Assembly: GCF_001879715.1 (NCBI RefSeq)
Contig: NZ_MNBW01000007.1
Span: forward strand, 1 to 64,000
Length of the DNA: 64,000 nt
Source of the DNA: Nioella nitratireducens
Lineage (GTDB): Bacteria > Pseudomonadota > Alphaproteobacteria > Rhodobacterales > Rhodobacteraceae
Direction of reading: 5' to 3'
The position numbers were made by a program, and so were the translations under genes. Position 1 is the first letter of the stretch. Each line of letters starts with the position of its first letter. The notes below the pieces were generated by a model. The model was not told where the DNA came from, made no database searches, and worked only from the letters and a program-made list of their open reading frames with translations. Of this stretch, positions 12 through 61,303 are shown piece by piece.

Positions 12-1439
12 TCATTGAAATGACTCAGGCCACCACGTCAAAAAGCGAAAATCGCGCCTGATTTTGTCGAACTTGGGGTGCCCGGCAATGGTCAACGCCG
101 GGTAGGCGTGGCCATCCGGCGCTGCGCAGCCAAATGCCTCACAAAGCTTGGCACGCAGATCGACCGGCAAGGTGGCCGTCATCAGAATAGCGGATCCGTT
201 CATGCGCCGATGCAATCGCAGAAGGTGACACAGCTCTTGCGTCATATAGGGATCGCCCATCTCGTGAACCTCATCCACGATCAGGATCTTTCCCGACAGC
301 GCAAAGTGGCGCAGCATCGCGTGCCGGACAGGCAAGGCCGACAACAGCGCCTGATCTATGGTCCCCACTCCGACATTTGCCAACAGCGCACGGCGGCGAT
401 TATCTGCCAGCCATTCTGTGCAAGCCGGCATCGTTTTGCCCCTCGTGGCCTTTATCAGATCGCGAAACCGCGCTGACATCTCGGCACGCCCATGCGCCAA
501 CGCCAGGCTCGGGGCCGTGTCAAACAGACGCCCCGCAAGATCTGCGGCACGGTCGAACATCGCGTTTGCGGTGGCCATCGTCGGCAAGGCGAAGAACAAC
601 CCCTCCCCCAAACCGGCTTGCATCATCCGCTGCGCCAGTATCAGCGCGGCCTCTGTCTTGCCCGAGCCGGTTTCATCCTCGATCACAGCGAGAACAGGGC
701 CGTCAGGAAGGTCGATGGTCTGGGCGGTGGCCTGCATCGGACGTAGGGTCCAGCCTTGGGGCATCAACGGCGCGCTCGATACCTGCGGAACATCCAGACC
801 TGCAAGGTGCACCGCCTCCCTGGCAAGCGCACGGGCCCGATCCAGATACTTGGCCAGGTCCATCGCCTCCGCGACCGGCGGAAAGAAATCGGGATTCGAT
901 GCCACCCAATCCGCGACCGCAATCAACCCAGGAAGCCACCAAGTCTGCGCCGGGGTTTCCTGCCAAGGCAGGTCATAGCGAGCATCCGGCCAAATCTTGA
1001 AAATCTCTGCAAGGGCATTGCGGGCATCCCCTTCAGCCTCCTGGCCGGCCGCAGCGATCATGGGCTCGAAATTTTCCTGCACGGGCGGCAGGCCATGATG
1101 GCCCGCTATTGCGGCATAGAAATCCAGTCGATCAAAGCGATCATCGGCGATCGCGCCCAGATCCACATCGAAGCGCCGCAACCAGGCCTCGGTGACTTCC
1201 CAATGCCGCCCCTTTGTCTGCGCTGTGCCGTCGCGCAGCATTCCACGAAAACTGGCGCTGATTTTTCCAAGATCGTGCAATGCCGCAGCCAGCGCGTAGA
1301 AGGCCTTTCGGCACGGCGGAATATTCATTCGCTCGACAAGGCATTCCGCAACTGTGCCAACGTCGATCATGTGATAGAGCGCAGGGTGTTCGACCCCTTC
1401 GTCGGAGGTGGATTTCGCAGGCCAGTCAAGAATTGCCAT
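12..1439 (-). CDS. cas3: CRISPR-associated helicase/nuclease Cas3 (type I-E-like), C-terminally cut short
   Basis: Cas3 is the nuclease-helicase that degrades DNA bound by Cascade. The N-terminal HD nuclease is visible: ALHDLGK (His55-Asp56), AGHHG (113-116) and VADW (Asp177). The first RecA-like domain follows: TGSGKTE (257-263), a DEVH box (389-392) and TATLP (421-425). The wording around these motifs (FFALPTMATANAMFDR, GTIDQALLSALP) resembles type I-E Cas3. I chose the ATG at 1439 because GGAGGGATAGG lies directly upstream; an ATG 36 bases further out has no comparable site. The frame stops at 475 aa, whereas Cas3 is usually about 800-900 aa, so helicase motifs IV-VI are missing. An ATG overlaps the stop (ATGA), so the rest could be a separate ORF, or the gene is frameshifted; the window ends here. 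The remaining cas genes would lie to the left. Confidence 0.85.
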   Translation of the reverse strand: MAILDWPAKSTSDEGVEHPALYHMIDVGTVAECLVERMNIPPCRKAFYALAAALHDLGKISASFRGMLRDGTAQTKGRHWEVTEAWLRRFDVDLGAIADDRFDRLDFYAAIAGHHGLPPVQENFEPMIAAAGQEAEGDARNALAEIFKIWPDARYDLPWQETPAQTWWLPGLIAVADWVASNPDFFPPVAEAMDLAKYLDRARALAREAVHLAGLDVPQVSSAPLMPQGWTLRPMQATAQTIDLPDGPVLAVIEDETGSGKTEAALILAQRMMQAGLGEGLFFALPTMATANAMFDRAADLAGRLFDTAPSLALAHGRAEMSARFRDLIKATRGKTMPACTEWLADNRRRALLANVGVGTIDQALLSALPVRHAMLRHFALSGKILIVDEVHEMGDPYMTQELCHLLRLHRRMNGSAILMTATLPVDLRAKLCEAFGCAAPDGHAYPALTIAGHPKFDKIRRDFRFLTWWPESFQ

Positions 1440-1873
1440 CCTATCCCTCCGATAAGGCGGGGTCACATTGCTCAATCAACTCTTCTGAGGTTTGCGCCTC
1501 CACTTTTTTCAGTCAAGAGATAGTGCCATGATGCCCTTGCCGAACCGGTGCAGCTCGGACCTTGGCATTTCACTCAAGATGATGGTTTTCTTCTCCGCCT
1601 CCTTGGCTCGAAATGTCATTTAATCTGTGCTCCCAGGTTCATTGAACCTTTGCCGGCATCACCAGATTTTCCGGATGGCAAAAACACTTCAGGCAATCAG
1701 GGATCCCTTGGCCGAATTAGAACAGCTTGGCGGCCGGGGCTGAACTTCGCGAGGTGGGAAGAGGCAGCAGAACATGGGGCCTTGATCCATGCTTCCCAAT
1801 TCAACGGCTCTTCATCTGCCCGTCGACCATAACACGCTTGCCTAACACCGCCTATCCGGCAAGCATGATCCTT
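1440..1873. other. Intergenic region between cas3 and the HNH gene
   Basis: This 434-bp stretch separates two divergent genes and should contain both promoters. Frames that cross it carry no recognisable domain. No CRISPR repeats, tRNA or clear hairpin terminator is visible. The minus strand has TTGACT near 1520 as a possible -35 for cas3, but no convincing -10 follows it. Confidence 0.4.
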
Positions 1874-2773
1874 ATGGCATTCGGCGTCTTCCTCCACCGA
1901 ACGGATTCGATCTACGACGACGTTCCGTCGGAGCGTTACCAGTTTACAAAGCAGTATCTTACGCGAGCCCAACAGTGTGAGGGTGACTGGATCGTCTATC
2001 TGGAACCCAGCAAGATCCGGCACACGAAAGGCTATTTCGCCGTCGCCAAGTTGCAGGGGATCATCCCGGATCCACGTAAGCCGGACATGTTTCTCGCGAT
2101 CATTGCACCCGGCACATACTTGGACTTTGGCGACCCGGTTCCCTTCCGAGAGGAGAACACCATCTTCGAACAGGGGTTGCTGAACGATATCGGCAAATTG
2201 TCCGGACGGGCTCAAGCCGCCGTGCGCACGCTTGCTGCCACAGACTTCGCTCGGATCGTCGAACGCGGCCTGGGGCGAGACGAAAGCATACTACCCCGGG
2301 TGGATCCGCCCCCTGCACCGCAAGGCTTCGAAGAGGGTCAAGGGTCATTTCAGCACGTTTCACCTCGAGAGCGTGTCGTGCAGCTGACCAATAGGGCGAT
2401 TCGAGATCGGAATTTTCGAAAAACCGTCCTGCGCGCCTATGACGACCGCTGCGCGATCACAGGGATGCGTCTGGTCAACGGCGGCGGGCGGGCAGAGGTC
2501 GAGGCCGCGCATATCAGGCCCGTAGAGCATGATGGGCCCGATATCGTCAGCAACGGCCTCGCCCTCTCCGGGACCGCGCACTGGATGTTCGACCGGGGTT
2601 TGGTGGCCCTGCGCGATGACCTGGCGGTTATGGTCTCCCGTCAGGCCAACGACCCCGAGTCCATTCGCTCGATCGTCAATCCGACCGGAAAGTTGATTGC
2701 ACCGGGCCGTCTGTCAGAACGTCCGCGACCTGAATTTGTGCAGTGGCATCGGGAGAACTGCTTCAAGCACTGA
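1874..2773 (+). CDS. HNH endonuclease family protein
   Basis: The C-terminal third carries an HNH nuclease domain of the HNH_2 type found in putative restriction endonucleases: CAITGM, then EAAHIRPV (His213), SNGLAL (Asn227) and HWMFDRGL (His236). The N-terminal part (about residues 1-150) begins MAFGVFLHRTDSIYDD and includes GDWIVYLEPSK and PGTYLDFGDPVPF, a region I recall as conserved in this family but cannot name. I chose ATG 1874 because homologues, as far as I remember, begin MAFGVF; ATG 1865 is an equally plausible start, and neither has a good ribosome site. The length of 299 aa suits the family. It lies divergently from cas3, so a defence role is possible, but the target is unknown. 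Confidence 0.8.
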   Translation: MAFGVFLHRTDSIYDDVPSERYQFTKQYLTRAQQCEGDWIVYLEPSKIRHTKGYFAVAKLQGIIPDPRKPDMFLAIIAPGTYLDFGDPVPFREENTIFEQGLLNDIGKLSGRAQAAVRTLAATDFARIVERGLGRDESILPRVDPPPAPQGFEEGQGSFQHVSPRERVVQLTNRAIRDRNFRKTVLRAYDDRCAITGMRLVNGGGRAEVEAAHIRPVEHDGPDIVSNGLALSGTAHWMFDRGLVALRDDLAVMVSRQANDPESIRSIVNPTGKLIAPGRLSERPRPEFVQWHRENCFKH

Positions 2774-3088
2774 ACGCGGGAACGAAACTCCAAACTGCGG
2801 ATTAGTGTCTTTATTTTGAAACGACCTTCCAGTGGACTTTGCGACGGCACAGTTACCGATCGTTTTCTGATTTCAGGATCTCGCCGCAAAAGAGAGCACT
2901 CACTTTCACCGCCCCGACCAACGTCGGCAGACATGTCCGAGCACCCCATCAGTCGCATCAATCATGTGAGGTAATATTTTATTGACAGAATCATATACAA
3001 TCACTCACATCATGGATGCTTCAGAAGGAAACCACGCCATAAGGCCCCCGAAGCCATGCGAAAGAACCGCAATCCCAGGGAGACTGAC
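2774..3088. promoter_or_regulatory. Intergenic control region upstream of the Ehu-like operon
   Basis: This 315-bp AT-richer stretch precedes the operon. TTGACA at 2982-2987 is a consensus -35, but no good -10 sits 16-18 bases downstream. The adjoining TCATATACAAT (2991-3001) resembles half of the palindromic sites bound by GntR/FCD regulators (general form TNGTATACNA), which fits the gntR gene at 6178 being local. The overlap of box and hexamer would suit repression. This is inference from pattern only. Confidence 0.3.
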
Positions 3089-3949
3089 ATGAACCAGCAC
3101 ACGAAACCGCTCACCCAAGCCACACGAGGCCTTGCGATCGCTTTGACAAGCCTGCTTCTGGCGCCGGGTGTTGGCGCGCAAACGTTAAACGACACCGCTG
3201 ATGCCGACGGTGTCCGCGTGGCCTTTTTCAATTATGCTCCGTTCGCATATGTTGCGGATGACGGCAGCGTTATCGGCACCGATGTCGAAATTCTCGAAGC
3301 TGTCCTGGGCCAGATGGGAATCGAGTTGGCCAGCGCAGTGGCAACCGATTGGGGCGCGTTGATCCCCGGGCTTCAGGCCGGGCGTTATGACGTCGTCGCG
3401 GCAGGCATGTTCGTGACGCCTTCGCGCTGTGCAGAAGTCGCGTTCTCCGAGCCGACCTTCGGCATCCGCGCGACGCTGGTCGTTCCCGCCGGAAACCCAA
3501 GCGAGATCACGCTTTACGAAGACATCCTCGAACAGGGGGCCACGCTGGCTGCCGTCTCGGGAACCGCGCAGGTGGCTGCAGCGCTTGAGCTAGGCATCGC
3601 GCGCGACAACATCCAAGAATATCCCGATGCACCTACGGCCCTGGCCGCCGTGCGGGCCGGGCGGGCCGATGCCTTCGGCGTCGATGCCCCAAGTGCCCGC
3701 CAGATCATCGCCAACCAGCCCGGCGACGATTTCGAAATGGTCGAGCCCTTCGCCGAGATTGGCGGGCAATCGGCGGTTGACCATGGGGCCTTCGCCTTCC
3801 GGCAAGAAGACCAGGCCTTTGTCGACAGATTCAATGCGATCATGCAGGAATTCATCGGTGGTGCAGACTATGTTTCCATCAACGAGGCCCACGGCATGAC
3901 CGCCGACGAGGCCCCTGTGCTCAGCGTTTCGGATCTCTGCGGCGCGTAA
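3089..3949 (+). CDS. ABC transporter substrate-binding protein, EhuB-like (polar amino acid/ectoine family)
   Basis: This is the periplasmic receptor of an amino-acid-type ABC importer. A signal peptide covers about residues 1-31 (basic start, hydrophobic ALTSLLLAPGVGA, cleavage near AQ). The mature part follows the SBP_bac_3 fold: RVAFFNYAPFAYVADDGSV, then WGALIPGLQAGRYDVVAAGM and TPSRCAEVAFSEPTFGI. The last two runs closely follow my memory of the ectoine-binding protein EhuB. The residue after the first Asn (NYAPF) is Tyr where I recall Glu in EhuB, so the ligand may differ. The start at 3089 follows AGGGAGACTGAC; an ATG at 3056 lacks such a site. It is first in an operon of eight genes, followed by two permeases and the ATPase. 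Confidence 0.88.
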   Translation: MNQHTKPLTQATRGLAIALTSLLLAPGVGAQTLNDTADADGVRVAFFNYAPFAYVADDGSVIGTDVEILEAVLGQMGIELASAVATDWGALIPGLQAGRYDVVAAGMFVTPSRCAEVAFSEPTFGIRATLVVPAGNPSEITLYEDILEQGATLAAVSGTAQVAAALELGIARDNIQEYPDAPTALAAVRAGRADAFGVDAPSARQIIANQPGDDFEMVEPFAEIGGQSAVDHGAFAFRQEDQAFVDRFNAIMQEFIGGADYVSINEAHGMTADEAPVLSVSDLCGA

Positions 3950-4012
3950 TGTTGGCCCCCGGTCGTGCTGCAATCGAGTGGCCGGGGGCAATCTCTTGAC
4001 GCAAGGCCTCAA

Positions 4013-4732
4013 ATGTCCCGCAGTCCGATCGCCATCCTCGTCCCGCTTGCATTTCTGGCAGGACTCTATTTTGCAGTCTTCTCGTCGGTCGCGCAGTTCC
4101 TTCCCGCACTGCTGAACGGGTTGACGGTGACGGTTTCTGTGGCAGTGCCTTCGATTCTTCTAGCTTATGCGATCTCGCTCCTTGCCGGGCTGGGCCGTCT
4201 GTCTTCTATCGCACCGCTGCGTTGGGTCTCCGTCGTATATATCGAAGTGTTCCGCGGCGTGAGCCTACTGGTCGTCCTGTTCTGGCTCTACTTCGTGCTA
4301 CCCGAATTCGGCCTCACCCTATCGGCGTATACCGCTGCGCTTTTGGGTGTCAGCCTGAATGCCGGGGCCTATGGTGCGGAAATTGTGCGTGGCGCGGTGC
4401 GGGCAGAGCCCAAGGGGCAATATGAGGCTTGTGTGACGCTGAATATGCCACCCTTGCGCAAATACGCCCGCATCATCCTGCCGCAAGCTTTGGTGATCGC
4501 GATTCCGGCAATGACAAACATGACGATCGAGCTGCTCAAGGGAACCGCACTGGTTTCGGCGGTAACTTTGGTTGACCTGACCGCCGCCGGGGTGCGGCAA
4601 AACCAGCTGACCTATCGCACTGTCGAGATCTTTTCGGTTCTTGCGCTGATCTACTTCTGCCTTGCGCAGATAGTGCGTTTTTCCGGTGCACGGCTGGAAC
4701 ATGTCTTCAACCGACACCTGGGGGAGCGGTGA
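4013..4732 (+). CDS. ABC transporter permease, EhuC-like
   Basis: This inner-membrane subunit of 239 aa belongs to the HisM/GlnP permease family. It has several hydrophobic segments and the cytoplasmic EAA loop that docks the ATPase (YEACVTLNMPPLRKYARIILPQA, with the family G replaced by N). IEVFRGVSLLVVLFWLYF and GAYGAEIVRGAVRAEPKGQ match what I remember of EhuC. I chose ATG 4013 over an ATG at 3965 because the latter adds a hydrophilic tail absent from the family. The stop overlaps the next start (TGATG), suggesting translational coupling. It is expected to pair with the following permease as a heterodimer. Confidence 0.87.
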   Translation: MSRSPIAILVPLAFLAGLYFAVFSSVAQFLPALLNGLTVTVSVAVPSILLAYAISLLAGLGRLSSIAPLRWVSVVYIEVFRGVSLLVVLFWLYFVLPEFGLTLSAYTAALLGVSLNAGAYGAEIVRGAVRAEPKGQYEACVTLNMPPLRKYARIILPQALVIAIPAMTNMTIELLKGTALVSAVTLVDLTAAGVRQNQLTYRTVEIFSVLALIYFCLAQIVRFSGARLEHVFNRHLGER

Positions 4733-5403
4733 TGGACTGGCGTTGGGATTTCACCTTTGAAACCGTCTTGCCGCGCATCTTGCCGGGGCTCTGGGTCACG
4801 GTCGAGGTCACCTTTCTGTCCTTCGCACTGTCGCTGGTGCTGGGATTGTTCTTGATGATCGCGCGACGCTCAACGATCAGGCCACTTTCCGTCGCAGCGG
4901 GTGAGTTCATCGAGTTCATGCGCGGCATGCCATTGGTCGTGGTGATCTTTTTCCTGTTCTTCCTGTTGCCTGAAATCGGAATCTTCCTGGCCCCATTCTG
5001 GACAGGTGTTCTGGCCATGGGGATCTACAACGCCGCCCCAGTGGCTGAGATTCTGCGTGGAGGCTTGCAAGCCGTGCCAAAGGGGCAGTGGGAAGCCGCT
5101 CATGTGCTGAATTACTCGACCTACCGCACTTGGCGGCAGGTGATCCTGCCACAGGCGGTCAAGCCGGTCGTTCCGGGGCTGGGAAACCTTCTGATCCTGG
5201 CATTCAAGGAAACGCCGCTTCTGTCTTTCGTCGCCGTGCCCGAAATGCTGGATGCCGCGCGGCGCATCGCATCAGAAACCTATCGCTTTACAGAGCCGCT
5301 GACGGTGGTGGGGATTCTGTTCCTAATCCTCAGCCTGTTTTCAGCCGTTCTGATCCGCCTCGTCGAGCGGCACTTGCTCACGGAGACCCGCCATGGCAAA
5401 TGA
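4732..5403 (+). CDS. ABC transporter permease, EhuD-like
   Basis: This is the second permease of the importer, 223 aa, of the same HisM/GlnP family. The family motifs are present: TVEVTFLSFALSLVLGL near the N-terminus, IEFMRGMPLVVVIFFLFFLLP, and the EAA loop WEAAHVLNYSTYRTWRQVILPQA. The ATG at 4732 shares its A with the upstream stop and sits five bases after GGGGAG; a GTG at 4729 is possible. The gene overlaps the ATPase gene by 11 bases. Together these point to one co-translated transporter unit. Confidence 0.87.
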   Translation: MDWRWDFTFETVLPRILPGLWVTVEVTFLSFALSLVLGLFLMIARRSTIRPLSVAAGEFIEFMRGMPLVVVIFFLFFLLPEIGIFLAPFWTGVLAMGIYNAAPVAEILRGGLQAVPKGQWEAAHVLNYSTYRTWRQVILPQAVKPVVPGLGNLLILAFKETPLLSFVAVPEMLDAARRIASETYRFTEPLTVVGILFLILSLFSAVLIRLVERHLLTETRHGK

Positions 5404-6169
5404 GAAGATCCGCTTTGAAGGCGTCACCAAGCGGTTTGGCGCGCTGACCGTTCTGGACAAGCTGGACCTGTCGATAAACGACGGCGAGGTGGTGACGATC
5501 ATCGGCCCATCCGGGTCGGGCAAGACCACAGTGCTTCGCTGCCTGATGACACTGGAAAGCATCGAGGACGGGCTTATCCGCATCGACGGTGAACCCCTGA
5601 ACAAGATGGAGAGCGAAGGCAGGCTAGTCCCTGCCTCAAATGCGCATCTTCGCCGGATGCGTCTCAAACTGGGCATGGTGTTCCAGAGCTTCAATTTGTT
5701 CCCGCACCTAACCGTCCTGCAAAACTGCGTGGAACCTCCGATATTTGCCCTCGGGGTTACGCGTGACGAGGCGCGCAGCCGGGCGCAGGAGCTTCTGGAC
5801 ATGGTCGGCATGGGCGACAAGCAGGCGCACTACCCGGCGCAACTATCGGGCGGTCAACAGCAACGTGTCGCCATCGCCCGGACCCTGGCGATGCAGCCCG
5901 AGATTCTCGTGTTCGACGAACCCACATCGGCGCTCGATCCCGAAACCATCGAAGAAGTCACTTCGGTGATCCGCTCGCTGGCGGTCAAGCACAGCTACAC
6001 GATGCTGATGGTTACGCATCAGATCGCTTTTGCTCACGACATTTCCGATCGCATCTGCTTTTTCGACAAGGGCCGGATCGTTGAACAGGGCCCGCCTGCG
6101 GCGGTCATCGACGCGCCGACCGAAGCCCGCACCCAGCAATTCCTGCGCAAAGTCGCGCAGGCACGATAG
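5393..6169 (+). CDS. Amino-acid-type ABC transporter ATP-binding protein, EhuA-like
   Basis: This is the 258-aa cytoplasmic ATPase that powers the EhuBCD-like importer. All nucleotide-binding motifs are intact: Walker A GPSGSGKT (38-45), Q-loop VFQSFNLFPH (97-106), signature LSGGQ (151-155), Walker B ILVFDEP (Asp175-Glu176) and switch His209 in VTHQ. The insertion around residues 70-85 before the Q-loop is typical of the HisP/EhuA class. The start overlaps the permease gene. The regulator gene begins only eight bases after the stop. Confidence 0.9.
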   Translation: MANEKIRFEGVTKRFGALTVLDKLDLSINDGEVVTIIGPSGSGKTTVLRCLMTLESIEDGLIRIDGEPLNKMESEGRLVPASNAHLRRMRLKLGMVFQSFNLFPHLTVLQNCVEPPIFALGVTRDEARSRAQELLDMVGMGDKQAHYPAQLSGGQQQRVAIARTLAMQPEILVFDEPTSALDPETIEEVTSVIRSLAVKHSYTMLMVTHQIAFAHDISDRICFFDKGRIVEQGPPAAVIDAPTEARTQQFLRKVAQAR

Positions 6170-6177
6170 GACTGACC

Positions 6178-6909
6178 ATGACTGACTCGCTGATACTACC
6201 GAAATCGGAAATCGCCTATCTGAGGGTCAAGCAGGATATCCTCAATGGGCGCCTGTCCGATGACGTCCCCCTGCGCATCGAGGCCTTGAAATCGAACTAT
6301 GACGTCGGAATCACGCCGATCCGCGAGGCGCTGGCGCGCCTTGAGGCTGAGGGTTTCGTAAAACTGCACCACAATCGCGGCTATTACACGACCCCGCTGA
6401 GCGCCGAGGACTTCGAGGATCTCGTGTTCTCTCGGGCGGTTGTGGAAGCCGACTTGCTCAAGCGTGCCATCGAGCGTGGAGACGAGGAATGGGAAGTGGG
6501 TCTTCTTGCAGCACATCGCAGGTTGGCAAACTGCAAATTGAACCTGCACGATCCGGACTTGACCGATCTCGAACGATGGGAAGAACGGCACATAGAGTTT
6601 CATATGGCCTTGGTAAGCGCTGCCGGGGCCAGGCATCTCCTGACCTTCTACCGCGGCATCTACGACCACTTCCGGCGCCACCAGAAAGCCTTCGTCCTGC
6701 TTCCGTCAGTTAACCGGGTCGGGCAGGGCGACGAAGAGGCGCTGCTCGCAATCGATGAATTGGCACAGCGCATTTCGATTGAGGAACACACCGGCCTGAT
6801 GGATGCCGCGCTGTCCCGCGATGTCGAACTTGCCGTGCGTCTGATCCGGGAACACTCCAGCCTGACCCCATCAAAGATCGGGGTGCCCTATTTCGTAGGA
6901 TCACAATAA
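6178..6909 (+). CDS. GntR-family transcriptional regulator with FCD domain
   Basis: This 243-aa protein has an N-terminal winged helix (about 10-75; YLRVKQDILNGRL and VGITPIREALARLEAEGFV are typical) and a C-terminal all-helical FCD ligand domain (about 80-215). FCD regulators bind small acids or amino acids and usually repress catabolic genes. Sitting between the transporter and the enzymes in the same operon, it is probably the local, autoregulated control protein, with its site perhaps near 2990-3001. Its stop overlaps the next start (TAATG). Confidence 0.88.
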   Translation: MTDSLILPKSEIAYLRVKQDILNGRLSDDVPLRIEALKSNYDVGITPIREALARLEAEGFVKLHHNRGYYTTPLSAEDFEDLVFSRAVVEADLLKRAIERGDEEWEVGLLAAHRRLANCKLNLHDPDLTDLERWEERHIEFHMALVSAAGARHLLTFYRGIYDHFRRHQKAFVLLPSVNRVGQGDEEALLAIDELAQRISIEEHTGLMDAALSRDVELAVRLIREHSSLTPSKIGVPYFVGSQ

Positions 6910-7892
6910 TGCACGGGCAGGACTTGCAAGCGCCCGTGCGTATCCCTGATCTCGGCGAGATCACCGAAGCGGCACGTCGGATCGCACCCCATTTGGATGA
7001 AAGCCCGGTTTTCGAATTGCCGCTTGGCTTGCCGGGTAAAAGGATCTTCATCAAGGATGAGGGGCGCAACCGGGCCGGTGCATTCAAGTTGCGTGGCGCG
7101 TTGAACGCTGTTTTGTCTTGCCCGCACGAGCGGATCGCGGAGGGCGTCTGCACCGTCAGTTCCGGCAACATGGCCTATGCCGTGGCGGTGGCCGCGCGCA
7201 TCGCCGGGGTGCCGATGGCGGCCTACATGTATGCCCATGCGCCCCACTCCAAGATGGAGGGCGTGCGCGAAAATGGTGGCGAGGTTCGCATTGTCAGCGA
7301 CGAGGTCTACTGGTCCTACGCCCTTGGCCAGTCCGCGCCAGAAACGGAATGGGCCTATATTTACCCGGTCACCGATCAGGCCGTGATCACTGGCCATGCC
7401 TCAATCGGGCTGGAAATCGCGCAGCAAGTGCCGGATGCGGACGTGGTGTTGACACCATACGGCGCGGGTGGGTTGACCACTGGCACGGCCAGCGCCCTGC
7501 ACCGGCTTGGGCACACGGCTGAAGTCGTCGCGGTTGAGGCCGAGGTCGCGACGCCAGTCGCCGCAGCGCTCGCCGCCGGGCATCCCGTGACCGTTGAAAT
7601 GCAGCGCTCTTTCGTCAAGGCCATCGGAGCCCCGACAGTCATTGACGGTGTGTGGAGTGCGACCAGGCAATTGGTGCGGCGCAGTTCAGTGGTCACGCTT
7701 GAACAGACCGTCGCCGCGATGCGCCTTCTGTATGACGAGGCCAAGATCGTGACGGAAGGGGCTTCCGCCACCGCGCTGGCCGCAGCCATCCATGACCCGG
7801 CACTGACCGGCACGATCGTGTGCGTTCTCAGCGGCCACAACATCGACGCAGCAGACTATGCGACCGTTCTGCAAGGGGGGATTCCGCAATGA
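6909..7892 (+). CDS. PLP-dependent enzyme, serine/threonine dehydratase fold (EutB-like)
   Basis: This 327-aa protein has fold type II PLP architecture. The likely Schiff-base lysine is Lys60 in GAFKLRGA, the substrate-binding Ser-Gly-Asn is SSGNM (85-89), and the phosphate-binding loop is YGAGGL (184-189). The length matches IlvA-like catabolic dehydratases and EutB, which removes the hydroxyl group in hydroxyectoine breakdown. It diverges at several usually strict points (SGNMAY instead of SGNHAQ; TGHASIG instead of AGQGTIG), so the substrate may not be threonine or serine. A lyase or ammonia-lyase reaction on the imported compound is the likely role. It is co-translated with its neighbours (TAATG upstream, ATGA downstream). 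Confidence 0.8.
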   Translation: MHGQDLQAPVRIPDLGEITEAARRIAPHLDESPVFELPLGLPGKRIFIKDEGRNRAGAFKLRGALNAVLSCPHERIAEGVCTVSSGNMAYAVAVAARIAGVPMAAYMYAHAPHSKMEGVRENGGEVRIVSDEVYWSYALGQSAPETEWAYIYPVTDQAVITGHASIGLEIAQQVPDADVVLTPYGAGGLTTGTASALHRLGHTAEVVAVEAEVATPVAAALAAGHPVTVEMQRSFVKAIGAPTVIDGVWSATRQLVRRSSVVTLEQTVAAMRLLYDEAKIVTEGASATALAAAIHDPALTGTIVCVLSGHNIDAADYATVLQGGIPQ

Positions 7893-8752
7893 CCGAACCG
7901 CAAAACGACATTCCGGACGGGCGTTTCCTTTATGATCCATCTTTGGTCGGAAAAGTCGCCCTCATAAGTGGCGGAATGGGCGGTGTCGGGCGCGAGACCG
8001 TCAAGGCGATGGTGGCGCATGGCCTTCGCGTGATCCTGACCTACGCCGACGGGTTCGAAGATCCGGATAAGGCCACTGCATTTGCCAACAGCCTGAACGG
8101 GGAAGTGCACGCCATCGGCCTTAACCTGATGGATCGTTCCTCAATAGAGCGCTGCATGGATCAGGCATTCGAGACTTTTGGCCGCGTCGATATCCTCGTC
8201 AACAACGCTGCCGTCGGCTCAGCCACCGTCACGCCCTATGGCAAGACATTGGGCGAACAGGACCGGGCCATGCTGCTGATCAATGCCGACGGCACGCTTG
8301 CAATGGTGCAGGCCTTCCTGGCGCAGCGCGCGGCGCGCGAGATCGACGAAATGGCCAAGATCATCAACCTCAGCTCTGTAGGTGGCGGCACCACACAGAT
8401 TCCCGGCTTTCGCCTATCTGACGGCATGAGCAAATCCGCCATCGCCTTCCTGACCCGCGCCCTTGCGGCAGAACATGTGCATGACGGGGTCGATGTCTTT
8501 GCCGTCAGCCCCGGCGCGATCAATACCCGGATGTTGCAGGCAAGCACCCTTGACAGCATGAGCGAAGCAGAGCGCGGCGCCTATATCGCGCGACTGCCAA
8601 AGGGCCGCTTGATCGAGCCTTCCGAAATTGCTGCGATCATCCTGTTCCTGGCGTCGCATTTTTCCTCGCCATTGCATGGAAGCGTGATCGACGCCTCCAT
8701 GGGGTTGGGGGTTCGGCCCGGGCTGGCCTCGGAACCGGCCCCGGCTGCGTGA
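7889..8752 (+). CDS. SDR-family oxidoreductase lacking the catalytic tyrosine
   Basis: This 287-aa Rossmann protein has the SDR cofactor motif SGGMGGVG (27-34), the NNAA motif (106-109) and the catalytic serine region INLSS (159-163). At the active site the expected YxxxK reads D-G-M-S-K, so Asp178 replaces the Tyr while Lys182 remains. The C-terminal PGAINT and the SSPLHGSVIDASMGLG end are normal for the family. The start at 7889 overlaps the upstream stop (ATGA). Because Tyr is the usual acid/base, the enzyme may be non-redox, use another residue, or be non-catalytic; its step in the pathway is unknown. Confidence 0.82.
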   Translation: MTEPQNDIPDGRFLYDPSLVGKVALISGGMGGVGRETVKAMVAHGLRVILTYADGFEDPDKATAFANSLNGEVHAIGLNLMDRSSIERCMDQAFETFGRVDILVNNAAVGSATVTPYGKTLGEQDRAMLLINADGTLAMVQAFLAQRAAREIDEMAKIINLSSVGGGTTQIPGFRLSDGMSKSAIAFLTRALAAEHVHDGVDVFAVSPGAINTRMLQASTLDSMSEAERGAYIARLPKGRLIEPSEIAAIILFLASHFSSPLHGSVIDASMGLGVRPGLASEPAPAA

Positions 8753-8761
8753 GGTGGCGTG

Positions 8762-9892
8762 ATGCACGCAGACAGGATTAGGGCCGCCCTATCTGTGATA
8801 GAGGACAACGAGCTGGATGCCGCGATCCTGTTCGATCCCGCTGCGCAGTTCTATTTTCTCGGGCATGACTCCTTTGCCGGCGTCAACACGCCCCAGGCCC
8901 TGATCCTATCACCGCATCTGACTCGGCCCTGCATGGTCATCTGGGCCGCTGACGCACCAATGCTGCCCGGTGGCGGAACAGGGCTCGATCTGCGTCGTTA
9001 CCAGTTCGGTGTGGATAGCCCGGCTAGTGCGCTGGCCGAAGTGCTGTTCAAGAGCTTTCCCGCCTCTGCAAAGTTCGGATGGGACGCGCAATCCGCTGCG
9101 TTGAATCACGCTCTGGCCAGCGAGATCATTGCAGCATGCAATATCACCCCGGTCGACATCTCGGCTGCGCTCGCCCGATTACGGATTTTCAAGACGTCCG
9201 AGGAAATGGCCGCGATGCGCAAGGCGGGAGACATTGTCGAGCACGGCCTGAAAGCTTTTCGTCACGCAGCACGGGTTGGAGCGTGTGAACGCGAGATCGC
9301 CACCGAGATCGAAATCGCACTGCGCCGCGCCGGATCAGACTACTGGGCAGTGCCCATCGAAATGGCCTCCGGCGACTGCGCCCACCATGTCCACGGCACG
9401 CCGTCAGAGCGTGTCTTGCAGCGCGGCGACCTGCTGCATGTCGAGTTCGGCGCCGTGCATCGGCGCTACCATGCCGTCGGTCTACAAACATTGGTCATCG
9501 GAGACGCCGATCCCAGGGCTGCATGGTATTATGACGTGGCCCGGCGCTGCCTTACGGCAGGATTGGCTACAGCCCGCCCGGGCATCCCTGCCGCCGACAT
9601 CGAAGCCCCCGCGCTCGATATCCTCCGCGCAGAGGGCCTCTCGGAAACGTTCGCCATGCGGTTTGGCTACAGCGTCGGCATCGGCTATCCGCCGACCTGG
9701 CTGGAGCCCTTCGGCATCACACGGACGAACCGCGCCCCTATCTTGCCGGGCATGACCTTCGTATTGCACGCTTGCCTTCTGGACGAGGACACGTCGCTCG
9801 GAGTGCTCGTCGGAGGCACCTACGCCATGACGGAGCAAGGCCTGACCCAGATAGCCGGCGCGGGTGACTGCTCCCTGCTACAGATATCCTAG
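8762..9892 (+). CDS. M24-fold hydrolase, EutD/DoeA (ectoine hydrolase)-like
   Basis: This 376-aa protein has a creatinase-type N-terminal domain (1-140) and a pita-bread C-terminal domain (about 145-370). The metal ligands of Xaa-Pro peptidases are absent: the first Asp region reads HVEFG (Glu228), the second reads YHAV, and the His region reads FGYSVGIGYPPTW. The HVEFG-RRYHA and GY-x-G-x-YPP-W pattern matches my memory of ectoine hydrolases EutD/DoeA, which work without metal. It probably opens a ring or hydrolyses a C-N bond in the imported compound. The ATG at 8762 follows GAGGTGG; a GTG at 8759 is less likely. It is the last gene of the operon. Confidence 0.8.
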   Translation: MHADRIRAALSVIEDNELDAAILFDPAAQFYFLGHDSFAGVNTPQALILSPHLTRPCMVIWAADAPMLPGGGTGLDLRRYQFGVDSPASALAEVLFKSFPASAKFGWDAQSAALNHALASEIIAACNITPVDISAALARLRIFKTSEEMAAMRKAGDIVEHGLKAFRHAARVGACEREIATEIEIALRRAGSDYWAVPIEMASGDCAHHVHGTPSERVLQRGDLLHVEFGAVHRRYHAVGLQTLVIGDADPRAAWYYDVARRCLTAGLATARPGIPAADIEAPALDILRAEGLSETFAMRFGYSVGIGYPPTWLEPFGITRTNRAPILPGMTFVLHACLLDEDTSLGVLVGGTYAMTEQGLTQIAGAGDCSLLQIS

Positions 9893-25193: not shown

Positions 25194-26594
25194 ATGAATA
25201 CGCCCTTCAACCCCAATGACCTCAGCCATGTGATCGAAGCCGATCGCGCCAATGTCTGGCACCATCTGATCCAGCACAAACCGTTTGAAACGGGCGAACC
25301 GCGCATCATCGTCGAGGGCAAGGGAATGCGGGTCTGGGATGCCCATGGCAAGGAATATATCGACGCCGTCTCGGGCGCGGTCTGGACCGTCAACACCGGC
25401 TACGGCCGCGAGCGCATCGCCGATGCCGTGCGCGAGCAGCTGGTCAAGATGTGCTACTTCGCCCAAGCTGCGGGCTCGATCCCCGGCGCGCTCTTCGCCG
25501 AGAAGCTGATCGAGAAGATGCCGGGCATGTCCCGCGTCTACTACACCAACTCCGGGTCCGAGGCGAACGAGAAGGCCTTCAAGATGGTGCGCCAGATCGC
25601 GCACAAGAAATACGGCGGAAAGAAAACCAAGATCCTCTACCGCGACCGCGACTACCACGGCTCCACCTTGGCTGCGATGTCGGCAGGCGGGCAGGATGAA
25701 CGCAACATGCAATACGGCCCCTTCGCGCCCGATTTCGTGCGCGTGCCCCACTGCATGGAATACCGCAAGGAAGAGGTTGGCTTGGGCCATCTGTCGGGCC
25801 GCGACTTCGGTATCGCGGCGGCGAACCTCATCGAAGAGGTGATCCTGCGCGAAGGCCCGGAAACCGTCGGCGCGCTCTGCCTCGAACCGGTCACCGCCGG
25901 CGGTGGCGTCATCACCCCGCCCGACGGCTACTGGGAACGGGTTCAGGAAATCTGCAAGCAATACAACATCCTGCTGCATATCGACGAGGTTGTCTGCGGC
26001 GTTGGCCGTACCGGCACGGAATGGTTCGGCTACCAGCATTACGGCATCCAGCCCGACTTCGTGACCATGGCCAAGGGCGTCGCCTCGGGCTATGCCGCCA
26101 TCGCCTGCATGGTGACCACGGAAGAGGTGTTCGACCTGTTCAAGTCCGACCCCACAGACAAGCTCGACCACTTCCGCGACATCTCCACCTTCGGCGGCTG
26201 CACCGGCGGTCCGGCGGCGGCGTTGGAGAACATGGCCATCATCGAGGAGGAAAACCTGCTCGAAAACTGCGCCGCCATGGGCGCGCGGATGATGGGCAAT
26301 CTTCAGGCCCTGATGGACAAGCACGGCGTCATCGGCGACGTGCGCGGCAAGGGCCTTTTCCTCGGGGCCGAACTGGTCAAGGACCGCGGCACCAAGGAAC
26401 CGGTCGAGGAAAAGGACGTGGGCGCCGTGGTCGCGGAATGCGCCAATCTGGGCGTCATCATCGGCGCGGCCAACCGCTCTATTCCGGGGCGAAACAACGT
26501 GCTCTGCTTCAGCCCGGCCCTGATCGCCACCGCCGCCGATATCGACGCGATCACCGACGCGGTGGACAAGGCGCTGACCAAGGTCTTCGCCTAG
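25194..26594 (+). CDS. tpa: Taurine:pyruvate aminotransferase
   Basis: Tpa moves the amino group of taurine to pyruvate, giving sulfoacetaldehyde and alanine. The 466-aa protein is a class III (omega) aminotransferase with YYTNSGSEANEKA, the Asp of the PLP pocket in LLHIDEVVCGVGRTG, and the PLP lysine (about Lys294) in VTMAKGVASGYA. TFGGCTGGPAAALENM and the N-terminal start NDLSHVIEADRANVWHHL match Tpa. GGGAG precedes the start. It stands divergent from tauR and upstream of a bidirectional terminator; its product feeds Xsc. Confidence 0.94.
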   Translation: MNTPFNPNDLSHVIEADRANVWHHLIQHKPFETGEPRIIVEGKGMRVWDAHGKEYIDAVSGAVWTVNTGYGRERIADAVREQLVKMCYFAQAAGSIPGALFAEKLIEKMPGMSRVYYTNSGSEANEKAFKMVRQIAHKKYGGKKTKILYRDRDYHGSTLAAMSAGGQDERNMQYGPFAPDFVRVPHCMEYRKEEVGLGHLSGRDFGIAAANLIEEVILREGPETVGALCLEPVTAGGGVITPPDGYWERVQEICKQYNILLHIDEVVCGVGRTGTEWFGYQHYGIQPDFVTMAKGVASGYAAIACMVTTEEVFDLFKSDPTDKLDHFRDISTFGGCTGGPAAALENMAIIEEENLLENCAAMGARMMGNLQALMDKHGVIGDVRGKGLFLGAELVKDRGTKEPVEEKDVGAVVAECANLGVIIGAANRSIPGRNNVLCFSPALIATAADIDAITDAVDKALTKVFA

Positions 26595-59947: not shown

Positions 59948-61303
59948 ATGACGAGGGAGGGGAAAAGTCACCTGTTCTATCAGGGGCGGGGGCGCAAACC
60001 CGTTCTGGATCAGGCGCGTGGCGTCTATATGTGGGACACCGAGGGCAAACGCTACCTCGATGGCTCGTCGGGCGCCATGGTCTGCAATATCGGCCATTCC
60101 AACGATACCGTGCTGGATGCAATGCGCCGCCAAATGGAGCGCTCGACCTTCGGCTACCGGTTGCATTTCGAAACCGAAGCCTCGGAAACGCTGGCCCGCA
60201 AGACAGCTGCCGTGACGCCAGAGGGGCTGGACAAGGTGTTCTTTGTCTCGGGTGGCTCTGAAGCGGTGGAAAGCGCGATGAAGCTGGCCCGCCAATATGC
60301 CGTGGCGACCGGAAGCGGCAGCCGTTGGAAGGTGATTTCCCGCGCGCCCAGTTATCATGGCTGCACGCTCGGTGCGCTGGCCATCACCAGCTATTCCCCG
60401 CTCACCCGGCCCTTCGAGCCGATGATGCAGCCCATGCCCAAGGTTCCGGCCCCCCGCGCCTATCTCGACGGGCTGGACCCCGAGGATGAGGCGACCGGCC
60501 ACCACTACGCCGACATGCTGGAGGCCAAGATCCTTGAGGAAGGCCCCGACAGCGTGCTGGCCTTCATCGTCGAGCCGGTCGGCGGTGCCTCGACCGGCGC
60601 GCTGGTGCCGCCTGTTGGCTACATGGAGCGGGTGCAGGAGATCTGCGCGCGCCACGGTGTGCTTCTGATTTTGGACGAGGTCATGACCGGGGCGGGCCGC
60701 ACCGGCAAGTTCCTGGCTGGCGATCACTGGGGGATCCGCCCCGATATCGTCGTGATGTCCAAGGGGTTTGCCGCGGGCTATATGCCCCTTGGGGCCATGG
60801 TCGCGCATGAACGGCTGGTCGAACCGGTGCTGGACGACGGCGGCTTTCAGCACGGGTTCACATACGCGGGCAACCCACTGGCCTGTGCTGCCGGGGTGGC
60901 GGTGCTGTCGGAAATCGAGCGCCTGAACCTGTGCCACAACGCCGAAGTCATGGGTATGGGGCTGAAAGCGCGGCTCAAGGGCCTGATGGACCGCTATCCG
61001 ATCATCGGCGACGTGCGCGGCAAGGGTCTGCTGACGGCGTTCGAGTTCATGTCGGATCGCAAGACCAAGGCGCCACTTCCCAAGGAACTGCGCGCCTTCG
61101 ACCGCTTCGTGCAGATCGCCTATGAAAACGGTCTGATCGTCTATTCCCGCCGCACCCGTGATGGGACCGAAGGCGACCATATCCTCGTCTGCCCGCCGAT
61201 GATCGTGACCGAGACCCATCTGGATGAGATCACCCATATGCTCGACGCATCGCTCAAGCAGTTCATGGAGGAAATCCACCACAAGCTGCCCAAAACCGCC
61301 TGA
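59948..61303 (+). CDS. Class III (omega) aminotransferase
   Basis: This 451-aa PLP enzyme has VFFVSGGSEAVESAMKLAR, PSYHGCT, LLILDEVMTGAGRTG with the PLP Asp, and the PLP Lys272 in VVMSKGFAAGYMPLG. Its family includes amine- and diamine-pyruvate aminotransferases. Following a polyamine-type importer and preceding a BKACE, it probably removes an amino group from a polyamine, acetylated polyamine or similar amine, giving an aldehyde or keto acid. Exact substrate unknown. Confidence 0.86.
   Translation: MTREGKSHLFYQGRGRKPVLDQARGVYMWDTEGKRYLDGSSGAMVCNIGHSNDTVLDAMRRQMERSTFGYRLHFETEASETLARKTAAVTPEGLDKVFFVSGGSEAVESAMKLARQYAVATGSGSRWKVISRAPSYHGCTLGALAITSYSPLTRPFEPMMQPMPKVPAPRAYLDGLDPEDEATGHHYADMLEAKILEEGPDSVLAFIVEPVGGASTGALVPPVGYMERVQEICARHGVLLILDEVMTGAGRTGKFLAGDHWGIRPDIVVMSKGFAAGYMPLGAMVAHERLVEPVLDDGGFQHGFTYAGNPLACAAGVAVLSEIERLNLCHNAEVMGMGLKARLKGLMDRYPIIGDVRGKGLLTAFEFMSDRKTKAPLPKELRAFDRFVQIAYENGLIVYSRRTRDGTEGDHILVCPPMIVTETHLDEITHMLDASLKQFMEEIHHKLPKTA

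Follow-up and report, generated by a model that had tools for sequence, protein, structure and literature searches.

An eight-gene operon of Nioella nitratireducens made of ectoine-system relatives, with a probable substrate other than ectoine

The stretch of Nioella nitratireducens DNA analysed here (hereafter the window) comprises the first 64,000 nucleotides (nt) of contig C67 (NZ_MNBW01000007.1), in a genome of 4.0 Mb assembled in 84 contigs. Near its start lies an operon of eight genes (positions 3089-9892, Table 1) for an Ehu-type ATP-binding cassette (ABC) importer, a GntR/FCD regulator, a pyridoxal phosphate (PLP) enzyme of the PALP type, a short-chain dehydrogenase/reductase (SDR), and an M24 protein. 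Judged from sequence comparison, it is probably an accessory, self-contained system for the uptake and catabolism of a carboxylated ring compound other than ectoine or hydroxyectoine, assembled from parts akin to those of the ectoine systems. An earlier note on this DNA had described eight coupled genes in this order, and its order, coupling, and family calls all held. All eight genes are open reading frames (ORFs) on the forward strand, and neighbors overlap or lie no more than 9 nt apart at six of the seven junctions (63, -1, -11, 8, -1, -4, and 9 nt along the operon, the first gap being the wide one). Families were assigned with NCBIfam and Pfam profiles run on the window proteins, and scores were compared with the NCBIfam equivalog cut-offs.

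The eight genes are a conserved unit. A search of genome contigs with the M24 protein returned 49 loci, and the neighborhood survey proposed earlier recovered the complete gene order in three further genomes: Nioella sp. MMSF_3534, of the same genus (L030, the same locus as L027), the metagenome-assembled genome HF-Dia14 (L029), and Defluviimonas aestuarii (L031). Protein-by-protein identity to the window was 65-90% at these three loci. The M24 genes of L032-L035 were 39-49% identical and stood without the eight-gene set; the remaining loci were more distant, some of them short. Ratios of dN/dS were 0.04-0.16 in 24 of 36 gene pairs, though these values are rough because many of the 24 have dS >1.5, and the other 12 pairs were saturated. 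Synteny across four genomes, together with low dN/dS, ruled out a chance cluster.

Close matches were rare. Counting the window genome in every case, the M24 protein was matched at E ≤ 1e-50 in 3 of 292 genomes of the order and the SDR, at the same threshold, in 2 of 390; no SDR match was found in three other genomes of the genus. In a wider search at E ≤ 1e-60, the SDR and the PALP enzyme were each matched in 2 of 337 genomes of the class, and the second match (for the SDR in G575, with one TAG within the matched stretch; for the PALP enzyme in G491) lay outside any such operon. We noticed no description of this gene set in the literature searched, and the terms short-chain, GntR, Nioella, Defluviimonas, kynureninase, and oxidoreductase were absent from the main text of a 2026 survey of EutD (PMC13188858).

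The pocket of the substrate-binding protein (SBP) argues against ectoine as the substrate. Its residues are numbered here in what we take to be the numbering of Sinorhizobium meliloti EhuB, with positions matched by spacing. The window SBP has Tyr for Glu21, Trp for Tyr60, and Gln for Glu134, and it keeps Phe24, Phe80, and Arg85. In Paenibacillus EhuB, according to PMC6915088, the strictly conserved residues of the ectoine pocket are Glu, Tyr, Phe, Phe, Arg, and Glu; relative to this set the window SBP has lost both Glu and retains the Arg, with Phe, Trp, and Phe as its aromatics. The comparison sample consisted of 22 EhuB-like matches at E ≤ 1e-40 in 244 genomes; a first comparison took in 20 SBPs, namely those of 18 fetched regions, the window, and Nioella, and the remaining two were added later. 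Loci with an EutB or DoeA match of at least 55% were termed ectoine-linked (L099, L100, L102-L107). Position 21 is Glu in all eight of these loci and also in L082, L098, L101, and L109, Ala in L116, and Tyr in all three readable SBPs of the window clade (the window, L029, and L030), the D. aestuarii fragment beginning past it. The Tyr reported earlier at an ectoine-binding Glu was real, and the Glu-to-Tyr change, now set in a comparison sample, supports the suggestion that the target is probably not ectoine. On the SBP tree the window clade occupies a long branch (0.90) beside the S. meliloti-type EhuB group. Compared with the EhuABCD ectoine importer (S. meliloti EhuB, PDB 2q88/2q89), the window importer has the same order of SBP, permease, permease, and ATPase, and shares Phe24, Phe80, and Arg85, but differs in its three pocket substitutions and in its long-branch clade.

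Within the same sample, 7 of the 22 EhuB-like matches, from the same order of bacteria, formed a second group with Ile or Val at position 21 (L108, L110-L115). EutA-like (Amdase-type) genes were present in all seven loci, M24 matches in five, and close EutB or DoeA matches in none, so that the group looks like another non-ectoine system. EutA-like genes occur too in the Glu21 loci L099 and L100.

The M24 hydrolase is likewise removed from the ectoine enzymes. It scored 67.8 bits on the EutD model (cut-off 613) and 112.2 on DoeA_2 (cut-off 575), fell outside a 100-supported DoeA clade, and was 26% identical to the DoeA encoded elsewhere in the genome. The positions that we take to bind metal in prolidases are occupied by Glu228, Val239/Gly240, Tyr303, His336, and Gly352; the conserved active-site Glu is presumably the nucleophile of EutD. 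The metal ligands have been lost, with Glu228 and Arg235-Tyr236-His237 kept as in DoeA. Glu228, Arg235, Tyr236, and Tyr303 were invariant across 22 aligned M24 sequences (alignment A3); conservation of the YPP motif in that alignment is partly a selection effect, because the patterns used to gather the sequences included GIGYPPTW. The predicted structure had a predicted local distance difference test (pLDDT) score of 91.7. Its top matches by E-value were prolidases and by template-modelling (TM) score EutD, barely (0.88 as compared to 0.87 for prolidases), and fold similarity therefore cannot tell the two apart. With the EutD/DoeA ectoine hydrolase (PDB 6twk) the window protein shares the metal-less M24 fold, Glu228, and the Arg-Tyr-His motif, but it belongs to a separate clade and has His336 and Gly352 in place of the Met and Glu of DoeA. 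Another M24 gene of the same genome, on contig C84 at about 68-71 kb (L022 6041-8971), stands with diaminopropionate ammonia-lyase-like and EutA-like genes, the three either overlapping or separated by 1 nt, and we noticed no importer adjoining them.

The PALP enzyme scored 157.4 bits on the EutB model TIGR02991 (cut-off 413.4), was placed outside a 100-supported EutB clade, and was 33% identical to the genome's own EutB. Its sister in the sample, 38% identical, adjoins a gene for an OCD-family reductase (L127). A PALP lyase adjoining a candidate reductase gene is also the arrangement of the EutB-EutC hydroxyectoine pair and of BhcB-BhcD, but the partner in the window is an SDR rather than an OCD-family protein. 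The analogy with EutB-EutC has limits, because the exact activities of EutABC in Ruegeria pomeroyi are not known, according to PMC8739950. At L034 an M24 relative (39%) directly precedes a PALP gene of a different kind, scoring above the cut-off of the serine/threonine dehydratase model PRK08246.

The SDR lacks the classical Ser-Tyr-xxx-Lys active site: Ser163 and Lys182 are kept, and Asp178 stands four residues before the Lys, a placement at the Tyr position that rests on alignment to 2p68, profile alignments showing a gap there. Asp occupied this position in all seven members of alignment A5 (the window, L029, L030, L031, a Shinella plasmid, G575, and Streptomyces clavuligerus pSCL4), which leaves out two further SDRs of the Shinella locus that are not of this subfamily. 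SDRs with an altered catalytic Tyr include peroxisomal dienoyl-CoA reductase, a precedent for which our literature search returned no support. Because Asp replaces the Tyr in the seven subfamily members compared, the SDR step proposed in the earlier note calls for caution.

A number of observations weigh against a non-ectoine substrate or limit the case for it. All four importer proteins exceed the NCBIfam Ehu cut-offs, the SBP scoring 200.3 bits on EhuB as compared to 190.9. The window SBP is also the only strong EhuB match in the genome, so import of ectoine would need some other system. The pocket argument comes down to one residue, because among the ectoine-linked SBPs only Glu21 and Arg85 are constant (Arg85 being present in every compared row) and the remaining pocket residues differ from one SBP to another, even the second Glu. 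The predicted structure of the SBP is unusable (pLDDT 32.9). In D. aestuarii an in-frame TAA (L031 4436-4438) replaces, in the SBP gene, the codon for the pocket Tyr of the other copies, the other seven genes being open, and this copy of the SBP may be decaying. To these can be added the roughness of the dN/dS ratios and the possibility that the window SDR may be non-redox.

Some of these points favor a split ectoine or hydroxyectoine locus, in which the window importer would feed DoeA, EutBC, and an aminotransferase encoded on different contigs, with the window enzymes as accessory paralogs. Ectoine-type catabolic genes are indeed present. Contig C45 encodes an EutB that exceeds its cut-off at 419.8 bits and, after it, EutC (467.2 bits on PRK08291, cut-off 408; 440.5 on TIGR02992, cut-off 471.7), a succinate-semialdehyde dehydrogenase (SSADH)-like gene, and a DoeD-like class III aminotransferase; contig C84 encodes a DoeA (598.5 bits, narrowly under the cut-off of 613) followed by an ArgE-type M20 protein. 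DoeD and DoeC/SSADH are our own labels: NCBIfam places the former in a hypothetical subfamily, PRK07482, and the latter falls under the SSADH cut-off. Relatives carry such genes together with an Ehu importer (L103, L105, L106), the SBP of which scores no higher than that of the window. Indeed, the 9-bit margin over the EhuB cut-off is uninformative on ectoine, because the SBPs of the ectoine-linked L103-L107 score 189-198 bits, under the window's 200, with five other matches at 272-394. For this reason we rejected the use of EhuB bit scores to judge ectoine binding.

The earlier observation that the ectoine pathway is otherwise missing is correct for the locus and the window but not for the genome, where EutB, EutC, and DoeA are all encoded. 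Of eutC and eutE, which the earlier note wished to see sought elsewhere, EutC was present on C45 and no EutE turned up in the genome. Within the window, tblastn (1e-8) gave no match to the genome's own EutC, EutA-like, SSADH-like, and M20 proteins, nor to KynU. Two stretches of the window (25242-26588 and 59966-61234) are 31-33% identical to the class III aminotransferase of C45. Ectoine catabolic loci carry eutD and eutE side by side, mostly with enuR, according to PMC8739950; neither EutE nor a MocR-type regulator is among the eight genes. The operon has instead its own hydrolase, PALP enzyme, and regulator, the last carrying an FCD domain and not the aminotransferase domain of EnuR. Because ectoine-type EutB, EutC, and DoeA genes stand elsewhere in the genome, we regard the window enzymes as diverged paralogs. 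Given these genes and the Tyr at position 21, where all eight ectoine-linked SBPs have Glu, we regard a split ectoine locus as quite unlikely.

From the observed gene content, coupling, conservation, and pocket and active-site residues, we infer reactions, an order, an effector, and a class of substrate for a system that imports and degrades a ring compound other than ectoine. The compound would enter through the EhuBCDA-type importer, the pocket of which keeps the carboxylate-holding Arg and an aromatic cage and has lost both Glu. The GntR/FCD regulator would sense the compound or one of its products and control a promoter that precedes the SBP gene. Next, the metal-less EutD-like M24 hydrolase would open the ring or split a C-N bond, and the EutB-like PLP enzyme would then remove water or ammonia from the freed amino acid. 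Finally, the SDR would act on the unsaturated or keto product, in the position held beside EutB by the OCD-family reductase EutC. A more specific version, which we offer tentatively and consider unlikely, is an undescribed pathway that degrades a naturally occurring cyclic derivative of an amino acid, again not ectoine but possibly ring-oxidized tryptophan leading into kynureninase chemistry, with ring opening by the metal-less M24 enzyme and an Asp-type SDR that reduces or rearranges the product of the PLP enzyme in place of EutC.

Neighboring genes hint at two specific forms of such a substrate. In the first, the compound would be aromatic and resemble kynurenine, ring-oxidized tryptophan being one example, and the M24 enzyme would open its lactam-like ring so that the products reach kynureninase. 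In Nioella sp. MMSF_3534 a second kynureninase gene lies directly upstream of the operon (TIGR01814, 269.8 bits, cut-off 246.4); the other kynU of that genome is elsewhere and adjoins an ORF that, by eye, resembles tryptophan dioxygenase. On a plasmid of Shinella sp. PSBB067 (L121), a 57% identical SDR lies 26 bp before kynU, in company with a 38% identical GntR regulator and a hydantoinase A gene (best model caprolactamase alpha, 456.6 bits, under the cut-off of 1000). The aromatic residues that abound in the SBP pocket would also suit such a compound. However, tblastn found no kynU in the window, in L031 (21 kb), or in L029, which starts just 253 bp upstream of the SBP gene. At the Nioella sp. 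MMSF_3534 locus a promoter-like block separates kynU from the SBP gene, the contig stops 157 bp beyond kynU, and this second kynU is closer to the housekeeping kynU (63-64%) than to that of Shinella (57%). Kynureninase neighbors were thus present in Nioella and Shinella and absent from the window and Defluviimonas, L029 being too short on that side to show one, so that an aromatic substrate, though unlikely, stays a lead. The Shinella locus resembles the window operon in its Asp-motif SDR and related GntR regulator; its importer differs, hydantoinase-like genes replace the M24 gene, and the listed region contains no PALP gene. It also holds a thiamine pyrophosphate enzyme and hydantoinase A/B genes, and is perhaps an undescribed set for lactam or oxindole breakdown.

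The second form is a proline- or hydroxyproline-type compound or an N-acylated amino acid, freed by the M24 enzyme. A 100-supported clade joins the window M24 protein with rhizobial plasmid enzymes, 34-36% identical. The M24 locus on a Rhizobium etli plasmid has proline-racemase-family, dihydrodipicolinate synthase (DHDPS)-family, and semialdehyde dehydrogenase genes, that of Mesorhizobium the latter two, and that of Microvirga a proline-racemase-like ORF, read by eye. Yet the ABC genes adjoining the rhizobial M24 genes belong to a different type (R. etli also carries, 4-9 kb downstream, a set of amino-acid ABC genes, its ATPase 48% identical), no PALP or SDR match was found at the R. etli, Mesorhizobium, or Microvirga loci, and the proline-racemase-family protein falls under every cut-off of its family. 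We consider a substrate of this type improbable.

Table 1. The eight genes of the operon and the block upstream of them, in window coordinates.
Feature	Position	Strand	Remarks
Promoter/operator-like block, putative GntR operator	2982..3002	+	TTGACA then AATCATATACAATC; read by eye
SBP_bac_3 substrate-binding protein, EhuB-like, altered pocket	3089..3949	+	
ABC permease, EhuC-like	4013..4732	+	226.6 bits, cut-off 197.0
ABC permease, EhuD-like	4732..5403	+	238.9 bits, cut-off 205.2
ABC ATPase, EhuA-like	5393..6169	+	385.1 bits, cut-off 345.4
GntR-family regulator with FCD domain	6178..6909	+	best named model CsiR, 124.5 bits, cut-off 218
Fold-type II PLP enzyme (PALP), EutB-like, outside EutB clade	6909..7892	+	lysine motif GAFKLRGA kept
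SDR, Asp178 at catalytic Tyr position (Asp178-Gly-Met-Ser-Lys182)	7889..8752	+	
M24 'pita-bread' hydrolase without usual metal ligands, EutD/DoeA-related, separate clade	8762..9892	+	alternative start GTG 8759 in ORF listing

Upstream of the SBP gene, ATTGACANAATCATATA is common to the window, L029, and L030, as read by eye. The block was not seen in the same form upstream in L031, and no k-mers of 7-10 were common to the upstream regions of all four eight-gene loci. A script found a 12-bp palindrome, ATCATATATGAT, in the upstream region of L029. GC content did not set the operon apart from its surroundings, and repeats around it revealed nothing telling. Directly upstream is an HNH endonuclease-like gene (1727-2770, forward strand). 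By the contig end lies a cas3 gene (12-1475, reverse strand; PADLOC Cas3e, 394 bits) that covers only profile positions 24-393 of 680.

By model name the importer is an ectoine importer, and the pocket and active-site evidence indicates that this name is probably wrong here; it is perhaps wrong also for the more common Ile/Val21 group of Ehu-like importers. Counts of ectoine consumers based on such model names could therefore run too high. The operon itself offers a compact, testable system in which to study a metal-less M24 hydrolase and an SDR subfamily without the usual Tyr.

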